From an alpha proteobacterium BAL199 (GTDB lineage: Bacteria > Pseudomonadota > Alphaproteobacteria > Thalassobaculales > Thalassobaculaceae), in contig ABHC01000003.1 of NCBI GenBank assembly GCA_000171835.1, positions 1 through 64,000 on the forward strand: DNA of 64,000 bases. The letters run 5' to 3'. How positions within the stretch are numbered: the stretch's first letter is position 1; each line of letters opens with the position of its first letter. The notes under the pieces are model-generated. The model searched no databases, was not told the origin of the DNA, and saw only the letters and a list, made by a program, of their open reading frames with translations. Position numbers and translations under genes: made by a program. Below, one piece after another: positions 49,675 through 55,802 of the stretch.

Positions 49675-50627
49675 CAGGTGCCTTTCGTGTCACGCAGCAT
49701 CTTCAGAAGCAGGATCAGGCGGGTGTCACGCTCGTTTTCCAGATCGCTGATGGTGCGCTCGCCCATCTCGTCCTCGATCCCGGCGATCAGCTTGGACTTC
49801 AAATTGTCATCGAAGCTGGGCGTAGCCTGCATCGTCGTCCACCAGGACTCCATGGCCGGGCCGAACTGTTCCAGCGAGGCGCGGATGCCGCCCTTGCCGC
49901 CAGTCAGGTTGAAAATCATGTGCGGCCCCATCAGCGCGTAGCGCAGGCCGGGGCCCTGGGAAATCGCGGCGTTGATGTCCTCGACGCTCGCCAGGTCGTC
50001 GATGACGGCGTTGAACGCCTCGCGCCACAGAGCCGCTTGCAAGCGGTTGGCCAGATGCCCCGGAACTTCCTTCTTCACCACGATCGGATGCTTGCCGATA
50101 TGGGCGTAGAAGCCGTAGGCCCACTCCGCTGCCGCCGGGTCGGTGACCTTGCTGGACACGATCTCGACCAGCGGGATCAGGTGCGGCGGGTTGAACGGGT
50201 GGCCGACCACGAAGCGCGGGGCCGAAGCGATGCCCTCGACCAGATCGGACAGAATCAGCCCCGACGTCGATGTCGCCAGGATGGCGTCGGCACCGAGAGC
50301 CGCGTCGATCCGCCGGTACAGATCGGCCTTGATTCCTGACCGCTCGGTCGCGTTCTCCTGCACGAAGTCCGCTCCCGCGACCGCCGCCTCCGGCGTGTCG
50401 AGCATCTCCAGCTTTCCCTCGCGGCCGATCGCAGTGCCGACCGCCTGTAGCTGCGGCCGGGCGTTGTCGATAAAGGCGCGCAGCCGATCCTGCCAGCCCG
50501 CTGCCGGATCCCAGGCCGCCACGTCGTAGCCGCGCGCCAGAAAATAGGCGGCCCAGCCCGCGCCGATGGTCCCGCACCCCAGAACCGCTATACGCCTCAC
50601 CGCGTCATAGGCCTTGTAGGTCGCCAT
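49674..50627 (-). CDS. 3-hydroxyacyl-CoA/carnitine dehydrogenase-like protein
   Basis: The 317-aa NAD enzyme has VLGCGTIGAGWAAYFLARG (NAD loop, residues ~14-32), DFVQENATERSGIKADLYR, LATSTSGLILSDLV and VGHPFNPPHLIPLVEIV, the last being diagnostic of the HCDH family. Length and sequence fit L-carnitine 3-dehydrogenase or L-gulonate dehydrogenase better than fatty-acid enzymes. Pairing with a DadA-like oxidase suggests catabolism of a quaternary-amine or hydroxy-amino acid, which is inference. GGGGAAG precedes the ATG. Confidence 0.88.
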   Translation of the reverse strand: MATYKAYDAVRRIAVLGCGTIGAGWAAYFLARGYDVAAWDPAAGWQDRLRAFIDNARPQLQAVGTAIGREGKLEMLDTPEAAVAGADFVQENATERSGIKADLYRRIDAALGADAILATSTSGLILSDLVEGIASAPRFVVGHPFNPPHLIPLVEIVSSKVTDPAAAEWAYGFYAHIGKHPIVVKKEVPGHLANRLQAALWREAFNAVIDDLASVEDINAAISQGPGLRYALMGPHMIFNLTGGKGGIRASLEQFGPAMESWWTTMQATPSFDDNLKSKLIAGIEDEMGERTISDLENERDTRLILLLKMLRDTKGT

Positions 50628-50754
50628 GCGTCTTCCCCCGTGTGCCCGTTGCGAACCATATCAGCACCGCCGACGCCGCAAGGGAATGCCATTCGGGCAA
50701 ACCGACACCGCGACCGCCTGCGGACATGACGACGCCAGACGCGCCACCAGAGAT

Positions 50755-50800
50755 GCGCACGCAGTGCGTCATTTCATCATGATACGCGCACATAGTGCGC
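50755..50800. promoter_or_regulatory. Tandem palindromic operator-like sites
   Basis: GCGCAC-gca-GTGCGT (50755-50769) and GCGCAC-ata-GTGCGC (50786-50800) are near-identical palindromes. Their centres are 31 bp apart, or three helical turns. They lie in the divergent spacer between the dehydrogenase pair (minus) and the hypothetical/CHAD/ParA genes (plus), and probably bind a dimeric repressor cooperatively. Confidence 0.65.
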
Positions 50801-50835
50801 ATAGCTCTCCATCACCATCTGGAAAAAGCCCGGAC

Positions 50836-51195
50836 ATGGGCAGACCCACCACGAAGCCAACCGCCCCCTCCCTGCTGCTGGTGATCGACAACGTCACCGC
50901 ACGGCGCAGCTTGATGCCGATTCTGGAGCTTGAGCGGTGGCTCAACGCCGTCGAGCACGCTCTGCGCCGGCCCGGGCAGCGCGGGATCAGAACGTCGGCG
51001 TTGCTGGAGATGCGGGCTTTGCTGCACTGCGAGTTGGAGGCCAGACCGTTCAATCCATGCCTTGCCCGGCGCCGCGAACAGCGACTGAGGTGGATCGAGC
51101 GGCAGATTCCCGGTATTTCCTCGCGCTTGAGGCTGCTGGATCGAGCGCGTCGGGTATGGTCCGCCATTTTGCTGGAGCGGACGGCTCGGGCCTGA
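50836..51195 (+). CDS. Hypothetical protein
   Basis: The 119-aa frame is Arg- and Leu-rich (LELERWLNAVEHALRR, RALLHCELEARP), predicted mainly helical, and matches no family I recognise. A GGAAA lies 10 nt before ATG 50836. The frame on the opposite strand is less protein-like. The palindrome pair sits 36 nt upstream. It precedes the CHAD gene by 50 nt and could be the first gene of that operon. Existence is only moderately supported. Confidence 0.4.
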   Translation: MGRPTTKPTAPSLLLVIDNVTARRSLMPILELERWLNAVEHALRRPGQRGIRTSALLEMRALLHCELEARPFNPCLARRREQRLRWIERQIPGISSRLRLLDRARRVWSAILLERTARA

Positions 51196-51245: not shown

Positions 51246-52787
51246 TTGGAACCAACCGTCATCACCCCCCTTACCGCCATTGCCGACGCGGTGCGCGGAA
51301 CGCTTGACGCTGACGCCTTCGAGCCGGCGAACCGGCGGCTGCGGTTGCTTGATACGGTCGACCGGCGCCTTGCCGCGCGTGGATGGCGGTTGGAAGTCGA
51401 GCCGATCGCCGGTGCGCCGGTCGAGAACTGGCGCCTGATCAACGGAGCCGGAAAGCTGCGGGCACAAGCCCGGATCCCGCACCCGGCGCCGCGGCTCGCC
51501 GATGATCTGCCCGACGGACCGCTGCGCCGCGCGCTGGAACCGGCGGTCTGGATCCGCAGTATGATACTGAGCCCCTGGATCACGGTGACGGAAGACGGAG
51601 CAGTGCTGCGGGACCAGGACGGCAAGGTCAGATGCCGGTTGGTCGCCCAGACCGCCGTTGCCGAAGGAGCCGGCGAGCAGCGCAGCGGTGTCCAGGTCGA
51701 GGCGCTTAAAGGCTACCGCCGCGACAGCGAGAAGATCGCCAAGCGGATTGCGACGCGTTTCGGATGGTCGCCATCGGGGCCAGATGCACTGACAGCGCTC
51801 GCCGAAGCCCTGCACGCACGGCCTGAAGAAAGCGACGAACCGTCGGTGGCCGACGCCCGCGAACCGGCGGGGCCAGCATTGCGTGTCGTACTGCTCGCGC
51901 TGCTCGACACCGTTGAGCGCCGGCGCGCCGGCGTGATCGCCGACATCGACTGCGAGGAGTTGCACGAACTGCGGGTCGCCATTCGGCGCATCCGCTCGAT
52001 CCTGTCCCTGCTGCGTACGCCGGAACCCGACGCGCGCCTCGACCACGCCCGAGAAACCTTCGCCTGGCTGGGCCGCGTCACCGGTCCGACCCGCGACCTC
52101 GACGTGCACATCCTGGCCTGGCGCGCCCACCGGCGGCAGGCGTCGCCCGACGATGCAGCGGCGCTTGAACCGCTCGGTCGGTTCCTGATGGACGAGCGCG
52201 CCAAAGCCCATGCGGCCCTGGCCCGGACACTGAGCACCCGTCGGCTGGACACGGCCTTGGCCCGATGGCGCCGTGCCCTCTCCGGTAACGGTGCCACCTG
52301 GACCCGTTATGAGGTCCTGCGGCAACCGGTCGGCGACCTGGCTGGCCGTCGAATCCTGAAGCTGTACCGCCGCGCGCTGCGGGAAGGCACAGGCATCACC
52401 CCCGCGACGCCGGCCGAGTCTCTGCATGCGCTGCGCAAGACCATGAAGAAGCTGCGCTACGTGATCGAGATCGTGCGTGAGGTCTACCCAACTCGGCGTG
52501 TCCGCGCCGTGCTGCAGACACTGCGACAACTCCAACAGGTGCTCGGCGACGTCCAGGACATGGAGGTCCAGGCCGCAGCACTGCGCAAGTTCGGCCAGGT
52601 CATGGGCGATTCCGGGACAGCCGGCCCGGCGACACTGATGGCGATCGGCGCACAGGCCGAGGACCTGGAAATCCACCGGGCCGAGGCACGGGCTCGCTTC
52701 GCCGAGGTCTTTGCTCCGATCGCAAGGCCACGCTTCGGCAAACGGCTGAGCGCACTTACCCGATCCGGTACCGGAGCCCCCGAATGA
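51246..52787 (+). CDS. CYTH-like/CHAD domain protein
   Basis: The 513-aa protein has a degenerate CYTH-like first third (LLDTVDRRLAARGWRLEVE near residue 37, then RCRLVAQTAV). A CHAD domain runs from ~215 to 505, with the conserved His/Arg helices ELHELRVAIRRIRSILSLLR and LHALRKTMKKLRYVIEIVRE. CHAD domains bind polyphosphate and are found on polyphosphate granules. No ATG is near: TTG 51246 is the first available start and no strong ribosome site is seen. The stop overlaps the parA start (ATGA). Confidence 0.88.
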   Translation: MEPTVITPLTAIADAVRGTLDADAFEPANRRLRLLDTVDRRLAARGWRLEVEPIAGAPVENWRLINGAGKLRAQARIPHPAPRLADDLPDGPLRRALEPAVWIRSMILSPWITVTEDGAVLRDQDGKVRCRLVAQTAVAEGAGEQRSGVQVEALKGYRRDSEKIAKRIATRFGWSPSGPDALTALAEALHARPEESDEPSVADAREPAGPALRVVLLALLDTVERRRAGVIADIDCEELHELRVAIRRIRSILSLLRTPEPDARLDHARETFAWLGRVTGPTRDLDVHILAWRAHRRQASPDDAAALEPLGRFLMDERAKAHAALARTLSTRRLDTALARWRRALSGNGATWTRYEVLRQPVGDLAGRRILKLYRRALREGTGITPATPAESLHALRKTMKKLRYVIEIVREVYPTRRVRAVLQTLRQLQQVLGDVQDMEVQAAALRKFGQVMGDSGTAGPATLMAIGAQAEDLEIHRAEARARFAEVFAPIARPRFGKRLSALTRSGTGAPE

Positions 52788-53527
52788 ACGTACTGGCGAG
52801 CTACAACATCAAGGGTGGGGTCGGAAAGACCGCATCGGCCGTCAACCTCGCCTTCGTCGCGGCCCGGACCGGCGCCCGGGTGCTGGTCGTCGATCTCGAC
52901 CCGCAGGGGGCCGCAACCTTCTATTTCCGGATCAAGCCGAAGGTGAAGGGCGGCGGCAAGGGCCTGGTATCGGGCAAGCGCGATCTCGGCGACCTGATCA
53001 AGGGCACCGACTACGACGGAGTCGACCTCGTGCCGGCCGACTTCTCGTTCCGGAACCTCGACCTGCTGCTCGACGCCGAGAAGAAGTCCAAGAAAAAACT
53101 CGCCAAGCTGCTGAAGCCACTCGCGAACGAGTACGATTTCATCCTGCTGGATTGCCCGCCCAGCATGTCACTGGTCTCCGAAGCGGTGTTCCACGCCGCA
53201 GACGCACTGATCGTGCCGCTGATCCCAACCACGCTATCGCTGCGCACCTATGAACAGCTCCAGGCGTTCCGGGCCGAAGAGAAACTGGCCAACCTGACGC
53301 TCCTGCCGTTCTTCTCGATGGTCGACCGGCGCAAGACCATGCACCGCGACATCATCGACCGGTTCCCCGACGATCACGCCGAGGCCCTGACCACTCACAT
53401 CCCCTATGCCAGCGTTGTTGAGCGCATGGGTACCGAGCGGGCGCCGCTCGGTGCGTTCGCGCCGCGGACCGCCGCCGCGGCAGCCTACGAGACCCTGTGG
53501 GCGGAGATCGTCAGCCGCCTCGGCTGA
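52784..53527 (+). CDS. ParA-family ATPase
   Basis: The 247-aa deviant-Walker ATPase has KGGVGKT (residues ~10-16), the VVDLDPQGA motif (near 40) and the LLDCPPSMSLVSEAV motif (near 120). A Lys-rich loop (FRIKPKVKGGGKGLVSGKRD) sits where ParA proteins often bind DNA non-specifically. ParA/MinD proteins position plasmids, chromosomes or protein bodies. No parB or parS is next to it. The 4-nt overlap with the CHAD gene ties its job to that partner. Confidence 0.93.
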   Translation: MNVLASYNIKGGVGKTASAVNLAFVAARTGARVLVVDLDPQGAATFYFRIKPKVKGGGKGLVSGKRDLGDLIKGTDYDGVDLVPADFSFRNLDLLLDAEKKSKKKLAKLLKPLANEYDFILLDCPPSMSLVSEAVFHAADALIVPLIPTTLSLRTYEQLQAFRAEEKLANLTLLPFFSMVDRRKTMHRDIIDRFPDDHAEALTTHIPYASVVERMGTERAPLGAFAPRTAAAAAYETLWAEIVSRLG

Positions 53528-53530
53528 GCA

Positions 53531-54925
53531 TCATCCGCGGGGTTCGGTCGGTCCGTGCTCGCAGAGCACTCGCTCGTTCGCTCCATCGACCTCGACCAGC
53601 GACACCGGATAGCCCCACAGATCCGCCACGTGCTGCAGCACGGCCGCCGCATCCTTCTTTTCCAGCAGGTTGCCGTCGACCACCTCGTGCCGAAGCGTCA
53701 AGGCCCGGTCACCCTCCAGATTGGCCTCGACCACCTGGATGTTCGGATCCTGCAGCGCGACGTCGTAGCGGCGGGCCACCGCCTTGCGGATCTTCTGATA
53801 GCCACGTTCGTTGTGGATCGCGTCGACCAGATAATCCGGATCATCCTGCCCGCCTGACAGTTTGAACAATCTAAGTTGCCGTATCACGTTGGGGCTCAGA
53901 AACTGCAGCACGAAGCTCTCGTCGCGGTAATTCGCCCAGGCAGCCCGGAGGGTTCCCATCGCGTCGTCGTTTCCGGCGATCTCCGGAAACCACTCGCAAT
54001 CCTCCTCGGTCGGTCGCTCGCAGATCCGCTGGATGTCGATCATCATCGCGAAACCCAGGGCGTACGGGTTGATTCCGGAATAGCGCTTGTCGTCGAAGTC
54101 CGGCTGGAAGATCACCGAAGTGTGCGAGTGCAGGAACTCCAGCAATCCGCCGTCGGACAAGAGGCCCTTCTCATGCAGCCGGTGCATGATCCGGTAGTGC
54201 ACGTAGGTGGCACACCCCTCGTTCATCACCTTGGTCTGCTTCTGCGGATAGAAGTACTGCGCCATCTGGCGAACGATCCGCAGCACCTCGCGTTGCCAGG
54301 GCGCCAGCTTCGGGGCCATTTTCTCCAGAAAATACAGTATGTTCTCTTCCGGCAGCGGCAGAGCATCATGTAACGGCGGGTTGTCCGGATCGACCTCGGC
54401 GTCCGGCGCCTGCCGCGGGTCACCCGGCATCGTGCGCTGCCAGACGTCGTCGTAGGTCTCCTCCTCGTGACGCAGCCGGTCGCTGGCGCGCTTCTTGGCT
54501 GATTTCGGACTGACCCGGCGCTTGCGCTGATAGCGGTTCACCCCGTGGTCCATCAGCGCGTGAGCGGCATCGAGCACCCGTTCGACCGCGCGCGCGCCAT
54601 AACGCTCCTCGCACTTCGCGATGTACGATTTGGCGAACTGCATGTAGTCGAGGATCGCGTCGGCGTCGGTCCATTGCCGGAACAGATTGTTGTTCTTGAA
54701 GAAGTGGTTGTGACCGAAGGCGGCGTGCGCGATGACCAGCGTCTGCATCGCCATGGAGTTATCCTCCATGATGTAGCTGATGCAGGGGTTGGAGTTGATG
54801 ACGATCTCATAGGCAAGGCCCCGGGCGCCCTTGCGGTACAGCAGTTCATTGAAGGCGAACTGCTTTCCGAAAGACCAGTGATTGTACATAAGCGGCATGC
54901 CGATCGAGGCGTAGGCGTCGAGCAT
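53531..54925 (-). pseudogene. SpoVR/YcgB family protein, 5'-truncated
   Basis: The 464-residue frame aligns with E. coli YcgB (510 aa) from the QMMDAYSSVGMP region to the end. MLDAYASIGMP, LAYEIVINSNPCISYIMEDN, HNHFFKNNNLFRQWTDADA, YFYPQKQTKVMNEGCATYVH and SGINPYALGFAMMIDIQRIC are all intact. About 55 N-terminal residues are missing: immediately upstream the frame meets a stop, and the bases belong instead to a yeaH remnant. The ATG at 54925 is an internal Met with no ribosome site. The body is under no visible decay, so the deletion is recent or is an assembly artefact. Confidence 0.85.
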
Positions 54926-54926
54926 C

Positions 54927-55121
54927 GTGCCGGAACCGCGGCTCGTTCAGCCCGTCGGTCGGAATGACGATCTGCTCGCCGTCTGCAACGTCACGGATCC
55001 GCCGTTCGGCCGACGCCTGTCGCACTGCCTCCGTCACCTGGCGTTTTGCCCGTCTCAGGAAGCGCTGCCGGTTCGCCAGGCTTTTGCCCTGGGAGTTCCG
55101 GCGCCGGTCGATGATCTGCAT
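54927..55121 (-). pseudogene. YeaH (DUF444) N-terminal remnant
   Basis: After a GGGAGG ribosome site, ATG 55121 opens about 65 residues that match the start of YeaH: IIDRRRNSQGKSLANRQRFL, then RDVADGEQIVIPTDGLNEP. The homology ends at residue ~65 (EPRFRH), where the sequence switches directly to spoVR out of frame. About 350 residues of YeaH are absent. YeaH and PrkA act together in sustained nitrogen-starvation and stress responses in enterobacteria. Confidence 0.82.
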
Positions 55122-55143
55122 CGCTCGGTCCGCCCTCCCTGGC

Positions 55144-55802
55144 TTAGCCGGCCTGCTTGACGCGCATGTACCACTCCACCAGCCGCCGAACCTGACCTTC
55201 GCCACCGTGAACTTCGTCAGGTCGCCGTCGAACTCGTCGAGCCGCTTCACCGCCCACGGTGATATCAGCCCATTCAGCTTGCGAAGCGGAATACCGAACC
55301 GGTCCTGCAGCTTCTGACCCATGCGCTGTGGGTCGAACAGACCGAGCGGACTCTCGAACACCGGGCTGATCTGATCGCCGGCCTTCAGGACGTAGATCGG
55401 ATGCTGCTCCATCAGGGTCTTGAGGCGTTCGGCCAACGACGACTTGCCGCCGCCGACCGGCCCGAGCAGGTAGAGGACCTGCTTGCGCTCCTCCAACCCC
55501 TGCGCGGCGTACCGGAAATAGCCGACCAACCGCTCGACGGTGTCTTCCATCCCGAAGAAGTCATGAAAAGCCGGATAAATCTTGATCGTCCGGTTCATGA
55601 AGATCCGACCGAGGCGCGCATCCCGCGACGTGTCGACCACTTCCGGGTCCCCGATCGCCGCGACCATCCGTTCCGCCGCGGACGCAAACGCCATCGGGTC
55701 ACTGCCGCAGAGTTCCAGATACTCCATCAGACTCATCTCGGACTCTTTGCGGGTCTGATAGGTCTCGGTGTACTCGGAAAACACGTCCTTCATGACGCTC
55801 AT
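55144..55802 (-). pseudogene. prkA: PrkA (YeaG) serine kinase with large internal deletion
   Basis: Residues 1-203 match the N-terminus of PrkA, including the P-loop LLGPVGGGKSSLAERLKTLM and PLGLFDPQRMGQKL. At about 55194 the frame jumps to the extreme C-terminus. The -1 frame reads QVRRLVEWYMRVKQAG and then TAA at 55144-55146, which is the normal PrkA tail. Some 430 residues with the kinase core are missing. The deletion puts the N-terminus in frame with yeaH, so a 318-aa chimera could be made. The start codon at 55802 has GGAGTGAGG upstream. Confidence 0.85.

Follow-up and report, generated by a model that had tools for sequence, protein, structure and literature searches.

A CHAD-ParA gene pair in an alphaproteobacterium as a candidate system for positioning polyphosphate granules

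In the first 64,000 nucleotides of contig ABHC01000003.1 of the alpha proteobacterium BAL199, a stretch that was analysed as a whole and that we call the window, a gene for a CHAD-domain protein overlaps a downstream gene for a ParA-type ATPase, and it is our belief that the two proteins are very likely linked functionally with polyphosphate, forming a ParA device that belongs to it. The best explanation of the pair, unproven at this time, is a dedicated ParA-type cargo system that positions polyphosphate granules, a reading that we hold with moderate confidence. The partnership of the CHAD protein and the ATPase is argued for by their overlapping genes, their co-occurrence in genomes and the matched subfamilies that they form. 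In other words, there is a good case for regarding the two as a machine, so far undescribed, by which polyphosphate granules would be spaced or shared out. The features in question, all on the forward strand of the window, are the following:

51246..52787, forward strand: CHAD protein, 513 amino acids, TTG start; the proposed polyphosphate-granule adaptor
51246..51818, forward strand: degenerate triphosphate-tunnel (CYTH/TTM) domain, N-terminal, without the ExExK motif
51891..52586, forward strand: CHAD domain, with polyphosphate contacts H240, R243, R247, R283, R404 and Y405 mapped from CtCHAD of Chlorobium
52784..52787, forward strand: stop/start overlap ATGA, 4 nucleotides common to the CHAD gene and the ATPase gene
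52784..53527, forward strand: ParA-type ATPase, 247 amino acids, ATG start, without a neighbouring ParB
52811..52831, forward strand: deviant Walker A motif KGGVGKT (K10 to T16), from the alignment of 77 members
52913..53008, forward strand: basic flexible loop after Walker A', residues 44-75, consensus FYFRxKPKxKGG

Conservation and co-occurrence of the two genes

An earlier note on this DNA had described a 4-nucleotide overlap of the two genes and a lack of parB and parS nearby, and both descriptions were borne out. Namely, the reading frames share ATGA at 52784-52787, no ParB is encoded on the contig of the window (C67), all 13 ParB_N matches of the genome lying on other contigs, and the 64-kb window has no match to the parS consensus, even when 3 mismatches are allowed. 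The locus is also free of inverted repeats. A stop codon stands in frame 4 codons upstream of the TTG start of the CHAD gene, which is the sole CHAD gene found in the genome, while PPK1 is encoded on a separate contig (C68) and the chromosomal ParA (contig C52) adjoins its own ParB at a locus separate from the pair.

By itself, an overlap of 4 nucleotides means little; it is the retention of the pair in unrelated genomes that goes beyond chance. We surveyed the genomes of 84,980 species, one genome each, with seven CHAD-linked ATPases as queries and took the best 80 loci out of a larger number. In 58 of them, the ATPase gene is immediately preceded by a CHAD gene of the same orientation, and 32 of these 58 show the 4-nucleotide overlap, as judged by alignment starts and not by curated start codons, which holds for all CHAD-ParA distances in the 80 loci. 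By record title, the 58 belong to Gammaproteobacteria (34), Alphaproteobacteria (6), Betaproteobacteria (2), Actinomycetota (10), Myxococcota (2) and Dormiibacterota (1), with 3 unassigned, so that four phyla carry the adjacent pair (Pseudomonadota, Actinomycetota, Dormiibacterota and Myxococcota); note that both Myxococcota loci are titled Deltaproteobacteria, which makes this label unsure, and that many of the 58 are metagenome bins. Among named isolates, the pair is adjacent in Methylotuvimicrobium buryatense, Methylomonas lenta and Nitrosomonas marina (L065, L064 and L092; L and G numbers are our labels for loci and genomes). Of the 22 loci without an adjacent CHAD gene, 3 begin less than 130 bases from the edge of a contig, which leaves 19 that are not so placed. 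Our own CHAD hidden Markov model misses some CHAD proteins that Pfam detects (in G577, the gene is adjacent by coordinates, yet unscored), so the adjacency count of 25 of 30 obtained with it is a low count, and 58 of 80 may be low too.

A survey of this adjacency across Alphaproteobacteria had been set as a check in the earlier note, and it turns out that other genomes have the pair, too. The ATPase is rare in this class (7 of 385 genomes at E≤1e-40), and in 4 of the 7 carriers, which span three families, the coordinates place CHAD directly upstream, as they do in 4 of 4 at E≤1e-60; the CHAD proteins of these four are the four best CHAD matches among the 385 genomes. Within a set made of the own genome and 40 relatives, the ATPase was found at E≤1e-30 in 6 of 41, directly preceded by CHAD in five (the own genome, G001, G002, G006 and G015) and not in G036. 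In G002, the frame of the ATPase (L014:1446-2187) is broken between approximately residues 21 and 33, with two tblastn pieces in different frames, reflecting either a sequencing error or a true frameshift. Two Paracoccus plasmids (L205:2484-5651 and L206:2473-5653) carry the order CHAD-ParA-CYTH-NUDIX, and the device can hence sit on plasmids.

The association is most readily quantified in 274 Gammaproteobacteria, where the ATPase was found at E≤1e-60 in 37 genomes and CHAD at E≤0.001 in 89. CHAD is present in 34 of the 37 ATPase carriers versus 55 of the 237 others (Fisher p about 5e-16, kinship ignored), or, after removal of three weak CHAD matches, in 33 of 37 versus 53 of 237 (p 4e-15, kinship again ignored), and 30 of the 37 carriers have CHAD adjacent to the ATPase. 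With this figure and the 58 of the best 80 loci, we reject chance adjacency. What is more, the two genes keep company even where they are apart. Among 40 ATPase-carrier genomes, 39 encode CHAD, including 18 of the 19 carriers without an adjacent copy; the single one without CHAD is a 1.9-Mb genome, probably incomplete. The distal CHAD proteins were examined in 15 of these 18: all 15 match linked CHAD proteins at 42-62% identity, and 13 have a SixA-like or PstS-like gene no more than 1.5 kb away. As for polyphosphate itself, PPK1 is present in 37 of the 40 carriers, own genome included (the misses are G410, G423 and G425; a raw count, with no baseline). Some pairs are flanked by PPK1, PstS-like, SixA-like, CYTH or NUDIX genes; among the best 80 loci, 5 have PPK1, 11 a SixA-like gene and 6 a PstS-like gene, in every case with an adjacent CHAD gene (again with no baseline).

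Phylogenetic trees set both proteins apart as subfamilies. The ATPase alignment consists of the window protein and 76 of the 80 loci (L057, L066, L071 and L074 were left out), the CHAD alignment of the window protein and 55 of the 58 loci (L088, L115 and L126 are too short), and the ATPase trees take in 36 of the 80 loci. In the tree of 56 rows, a branch of 52 rows is separated from the chromosomal ParA and three plasmid ParAs with support 100/100, a split at which, as the program warns, long branches meet and for which only these four partition ParAs were sampled. An earlier tree of 60 rows, which included long MinD, MipZ and two ParF-like rows, gave the branch a support of 82 and was rebuilt without those four. 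The clustering with partition ParAs that the earlier note had named as refuting is, in other words, not seen. ATPases without CHAD also fall within the 52-row branch, namely those of three genomes of one alphaproteobacterial family (f13), of Marinobacter, Sphingomonas and Pontibacter plasmids and of G711, meaning that loss, or gain, of the linkage took place repeatedly. The CHAD tree comprises 26 of the 55 linked loci, the window protein, one Paracoccus protein, the distal L133 and L025-L050, which are 26 loci out of 93 CHAD-bearing alphaproteobacterial genomes. In it, 28 linked CHAD proteins together with distal L133 and L025 stand opposite 25 unlinked alphaproteobacterial ones (SH-aLRT 99). 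One of those counted as unlinked, L040, has a weak ParA-like reading frame (E 3.5e-7) flanking its CYTH-CHAD gene.

The two proteins and how they might work

The CHAD protein scores 158 bits with PF05235 over residues 216-447 (cut-off 25.6), and its AlphaFold2 model (pLDDT 92.7) has as its nearest PDB structures those of CtCHAD (6qv7 and 6qva), the latter a polyphosphate complex to which the model compares with a Z of 31.9. In excerpts of PMC6537752 (the other papers below are likewise cited from excerpts), the CtCHAD residues whose mutation lowers polyphosphate binding are H253, R256, R260, R296 and R418 with Y419. These correspond to H240, R243, R247, R283, R404 and Y405 of the window protein, and each of the six is unchanged in all 56 ParA-linked CHAD proteins, while positions of the outer patch are variable and 2 of 6 are non-basic in the window protein (L371 and Q424). 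The protein, that is to say, has both the CHAD fold and the polyphosphate-contact His, Arg and Tyr residues of phosins. Its C-terminal tail is weakly basic, with a net charge of at least +1 in 37 of 56 members.

The N-terminal part had been called CYTH-like in the earlier note, which is right as regards the fold of the first 190 residues, a triphosphate tunnel, although Pfam gives no CYTH match. Structure comparison yields a Z of 10.8 to 2gfg and of 9.0 to the yeast polyphosphate polymerase Vtc4 (3g3q), with several TTM entries between the two. Structures of G-protein-coupled receptors, which are helix-bundle noise, reach a Z of 9-10 as well, and the assignment therefore rests on the many TTM entries that agree over residues 2-195 and on the matches of Foldseek, where the probabilities are near 1, yet with E of 0.006 and weaker, and not on Z alone. 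The catalytic ExExK motif is present in 0 of 56 linked CHAD proteins versus 19 of 25 unlinked ones, and we reject an active CYTH enzyme on this ground. Given that the motif was lost while the TTM fold was kept, we infer that the linked CHAD protein is a binder rather than a TTM enzyme, in which the tunnel domain would probably provide a further site for phosphate binding or docking.

The ATPase matches the AAA_31/ParA models of Pfam with 122 bits. None of the best 25 of 33 NCBIfam models reaches its curated cut-off, and the two best partition models score 82 bits against cut-offs of 348 and 180. Residues K10, G11, G12, G14, K15, D39 and D123 do not vary in any of the 77 ATPases; the protein has the signature lysine, the catalytic lysine, the Walker A' and B aspartates and the ParA fold that define the ParA/MinD family. 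Its AlphaFold2 model (pLDDT 89.2) is closest in the Foldseek ranking to Soj/ParA (TM approximately 0.9), followed by McdA, MinD and BcsQ. In sequence, the ATPase can be matched to the Soj-DNA entry 8jmj as far as residue 154. The model finishes with a helix, residues 230-246 of 247, which may or may not be the counterpart of the membrane-targeting helix that follows the last ATPase helix at the C-terminus of MinD. The loop at residues 44-75 is basic, with a mean net charge of +5.8 (range 2 to 10) across the 77 members, whereas the corresponding stretch in four ParB-linked or plasmid ParAs has -1, 0, +1 and +1; here, alignment residues 44-75 are set against the 32 that follow the motif in the other ParAs, and rows L019 and L020 are outside the count. 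The loop is poorly ordered in the model (pLDDT 64-70 over residues 51-70) and is a candidate contact to polyphosphate, DNA or the CHAD protein.

How might such a system operate? The CHAD protein would coat polyphosphate granules through its polyphosphate-binding pore, as the conserved residues and the solved homologues suggest, and, to judge from gene overlap, co-occurrence and matched subfamilies, would act as the partner of the ATPase. The latter, with its ParA fold and invariant KGGVGKT, is predicted to bind ATP, dimerise and coat the nucleoid. Granules coated with CHAD protein may then locally trigger hydrolysis or release of the ATPase and move up its gradient; the granules would thereby be spaced out in the cell and distributed to the daughter cells, as carboxysomes are by McdAB. 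One can also imagine a variant, to which we give only a small chance, in which the ratchet is gated by polyphosphate: the FYFRxKPKxKGG loop would bind polyphosphate, or would bind DNA and be displaced from it by polyphosphate. In that case, the granule surface would itself clear the nucleoid of ATPase, with the CHAD protein as the retaining factor; polyphosphate would be cargo and trigger at once, a polyanion replacing the protein activator of a ParA system. If granule positioning is the function of the pair, polyphosphate joins the cargos of ParA/MinD ATPases and the CHAD domain gains a mechanical role. The pair is, in any event, a named two-gene candidate for the placement and inheritance of polyphosphate granules.

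Standing of granule positioning among its alternatives

That said, several observations weigh against a dedicated CHAD-ParA device. First, either gene occurs without the other. CHAD is found in 93 of 385 Alphaproteobacteria, 89 of which are without the ATPase, and 55 of the 89 gammaproteobacterial CHAD carriers are without it as well. Conversely, the other 3 of the 7 alphaproteobacterial ATPase carriers, all of family f13 and with ATPases of 42-43% identity, gave no CHAD match at E≤1e-10, three gammaproteobacterial carriers (G464, G610 and G711) are without CHAD, and the ATPases on Marinobacter, Pontibacter and Sphingomonas plasmids have no CHAD alongside. Relatives of this kind imply that the ATPase can serve without CHAD. 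Second, in 11 Methylococcales loci, the ATPase gene is directly followed by glycogen phosphorylase (L054-L057, L059, L068 and L116) or by MgtE (L067, L078, L083 and L103), that is, in 7 and 4 cases, respectively, with CHAD elsewhere; the resemblance of distal to linked CHAD proteins indicates that the Methylococcales genes came apart, yet that both stayed in the genome. Third, the basic loop is no strict mark of the CHAD link: it is weak next to CHAD in Paracoccus (+2) and G530 (+1), its charge is +7 in G577, where CHAD is adjacent, and +6 in G711, where CHAD is absent, and it is 0 to +3 in the Marinobacter, Pontibacter, Sphingomonas and L015 relatives. Finally, known adaptors touch their ParA-type ATPase via a basic N-terminus (PMC12204374), whereas the N-terminus of the CHAD protein has a net charge of 0 or below in 44 of 54 members (with uncertain start codons); contact by way of another site is possible. 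The segregation device for polyphosphate bodies that the earlier note had proposed is supported in part: on this last point it departs from known ParA adaptors, its link to polyphosphate is strong, and neither of the two outcomes that were to refute it, confinement to this genome and clustering with partition ParAs (here the four tried), was found.

Three side observations on these ATPases may be recorded here. A 42%-identical ATPase on the Marinobacter plasmid pMAQU02 (L207:4001-4747) lies near phbB, a gene for making polyhydroxybutyrate, and pyruvate kinase; the stretch is without CHAD, and the cargo of this ATPase is perhaps another storage granule. A CHAD-less ATPase branch adjoins aat, as annotated at L209:2492-3205 and as read by eye from the translation at L015:1501-2217. 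In Methylococcales, the neighbourhood of ATPase and glycogen phosphorylase makes a link between polyphosphate and glycogen storage conceivable.

The main rival to positioning, to which we grant a modest chance, is a BcsQ-like role in polyphosphate metabolism, in which the ATPase and the CHAD protein would act on granule nucleation, on the access of PPK/PPX or on mobilisation together with glycogen or Mg, and not on position. It draws on the metabolic neighbours of the two genes (PPK1, SixA-like, PstS-like, MgtE, glycogen phosphorylase, CYTH and NUDIX) and on the BcsQ model TIGR03371, which matches 77 of 77 members at E≤1e-10, the window protein scoring 62 bits against a cut-off of 158, whereas among solved folds Soj/ParA and McdA are closest to the ATPase, with BcsQ behind. 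Moreover, the genes of ParA/MinD cargo ATPases often lie near their cargo loci, too (PMC10241942), and metabolic neighbours are consequently no argument against positioning. A second possibility, which we regard as improbable, is that the pair ties polyphosphate to the nucleoid or tunes segregation to the phosphate state, the granules being anchor and not cargo; polyphosphate granules of Caulobacter do follow chromosome segregation, with nucleoid association implied (review PMC13052382), but the present genome has its own chromosomal ParAB and the window is without parS. Very improbable, in our opinion, is an enzymatic or signalling role of the CHAD protein as adenylyl cyclase or tripolyphosphatase with parA as an incidental neighbour, as proposed with regard to cyclic AMP for Acidithiobacillus (PMC6416229): the TTM fold of the N-terminus is in its favour, and the missing ExExK motif of the linked proteins, as well as a parA linkage that is kept across phyla, are against it. 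Lastly, an ordinary partition ParA of plasmid or chromosome with a distant ParB and a chance CHAD neighbour is hardly credible and was rejected, for its ParA/RepA-like Pfam and NCBIfam matches are outweighed by a branch apart from the four ParAs tried, partition models below their cut-offs, a conserved CHAD partner and the absence of ParB from the contig and of parS from the window.

How does granule positioning by the pair compare with what is known? The closest parallel is McdAB, where a gene for a ParA-fold ATPase likewise stands beside that of the proposed cargo-bound partner, and where ParB and parS are absent, in our case from the contig and from the window, respectively; Cyanothece McdA and the ATPase agree with a Foldseek TM of about 0.8 at about 21% identity. 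The pair differs in that its proposed partner is a CHAD polyphosphate binder instead of McdB, and in that this protein has no basic N-terminus and the ATPase has a basic loop. With ParABS (Soj/Spo0J), the ATPase shares the fold, the best Foldseek group at a TM of about 0.9, and the Walker motifs, and differs from it by the missing ParB and parS and by its separate tree branch. The CHAD phosins (CtCHAD, the CHAD proteins of R. eutropha and PptA of Streptomyces, whose operon also holds ppk and a NUDIX gene; PMC8003754) have the same fold and polyphosphate-contact residues, but the linked CHAD protein falls into a subfamily of its own in our tree, has a TTM domain devoid of ExExK and goes with a ParA partner gene. 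AlgP, PhaF, PhaM and PhaH would, similarly, place storage granules on the nucleoid, but in these tethers a single protein binds both granule and DNA (PMC13052382; for AlgP, PMC9239181), and their dependence on ATP is given as unknown (PMC13052382).

The earlier note knew of no described system with this exact pairing, a statement that has to be corrected as regards the gene order. Namely, a folD, ppk, parA and CHAD group is described as highly conserved in Acidithiobacillus, where ParA is characterised by plasmid partition (PMC10892726), and ppk and parA appear in a legend on the gene context of CYTH-CHAD in PMC6416229, which proposes a link between polyphosphate and the synthesis of cyclic AMP. 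In excerpts of these papers, parA is read as plasmid or chromosome partition and CHAD is tied to copper or cyclic AMP; the adjacency is the same as here, and it is not read there as granule positioning. A 2025 review gives AlgP alone for polyphosphate granules, with the proteins behind the Caulobacter pattern unidentified and energy use open, in the excerpts at hand (PMC13052382), and the words polyphosphate and CHAD are absent from the main text of PMC10241942, which treats many ParA/MinD cargos. Neither a CHAD-ParA or polyphosphate-ParA positioning system nor an experiment on this pair was found among the listed titles and the excerpts read of open-access papers, a search that mostly did not extend to subscription papers and bioRxiv. 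As a polyphosphate cargo system, the pair would be a variant within ParA cargo systems, and the gene adjacency itself is already in print for Acidithiobacillus.

Neighbouring genes in the window

The flanks of the pair are apparently unrelated to it and encode an FAD oxidoreductase, a 3-hydroxyacyl-CoA dehydrogenase, SpoVR/PrkA, an aldo-keto reductase and an isochorismatase. Upstream of the CHAD gene, at 50626-51195 on the forward strand, lies a reading frame of 189 amino acids with no Pfam match at E≤1, which may or may not be a gene. Downstream, at 53531-55802 on the reverse strand, the prkA-DUF444-spoVR cluster is shortened: approximately 200 amino acids of PrkA run into the first 67 positions of the DUF444 profile, and the match of the SpoVR reading frame begins at profile position 38. 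No further DUF444 is present in the genome, and the shortened cluster is either a true deletion or an assembly collapse. In the relatives G001 and G002, the same stretch measures approximately 4.8 kb, as against 2.3 kb in the window, and the PrkA frame there has 649 codons.

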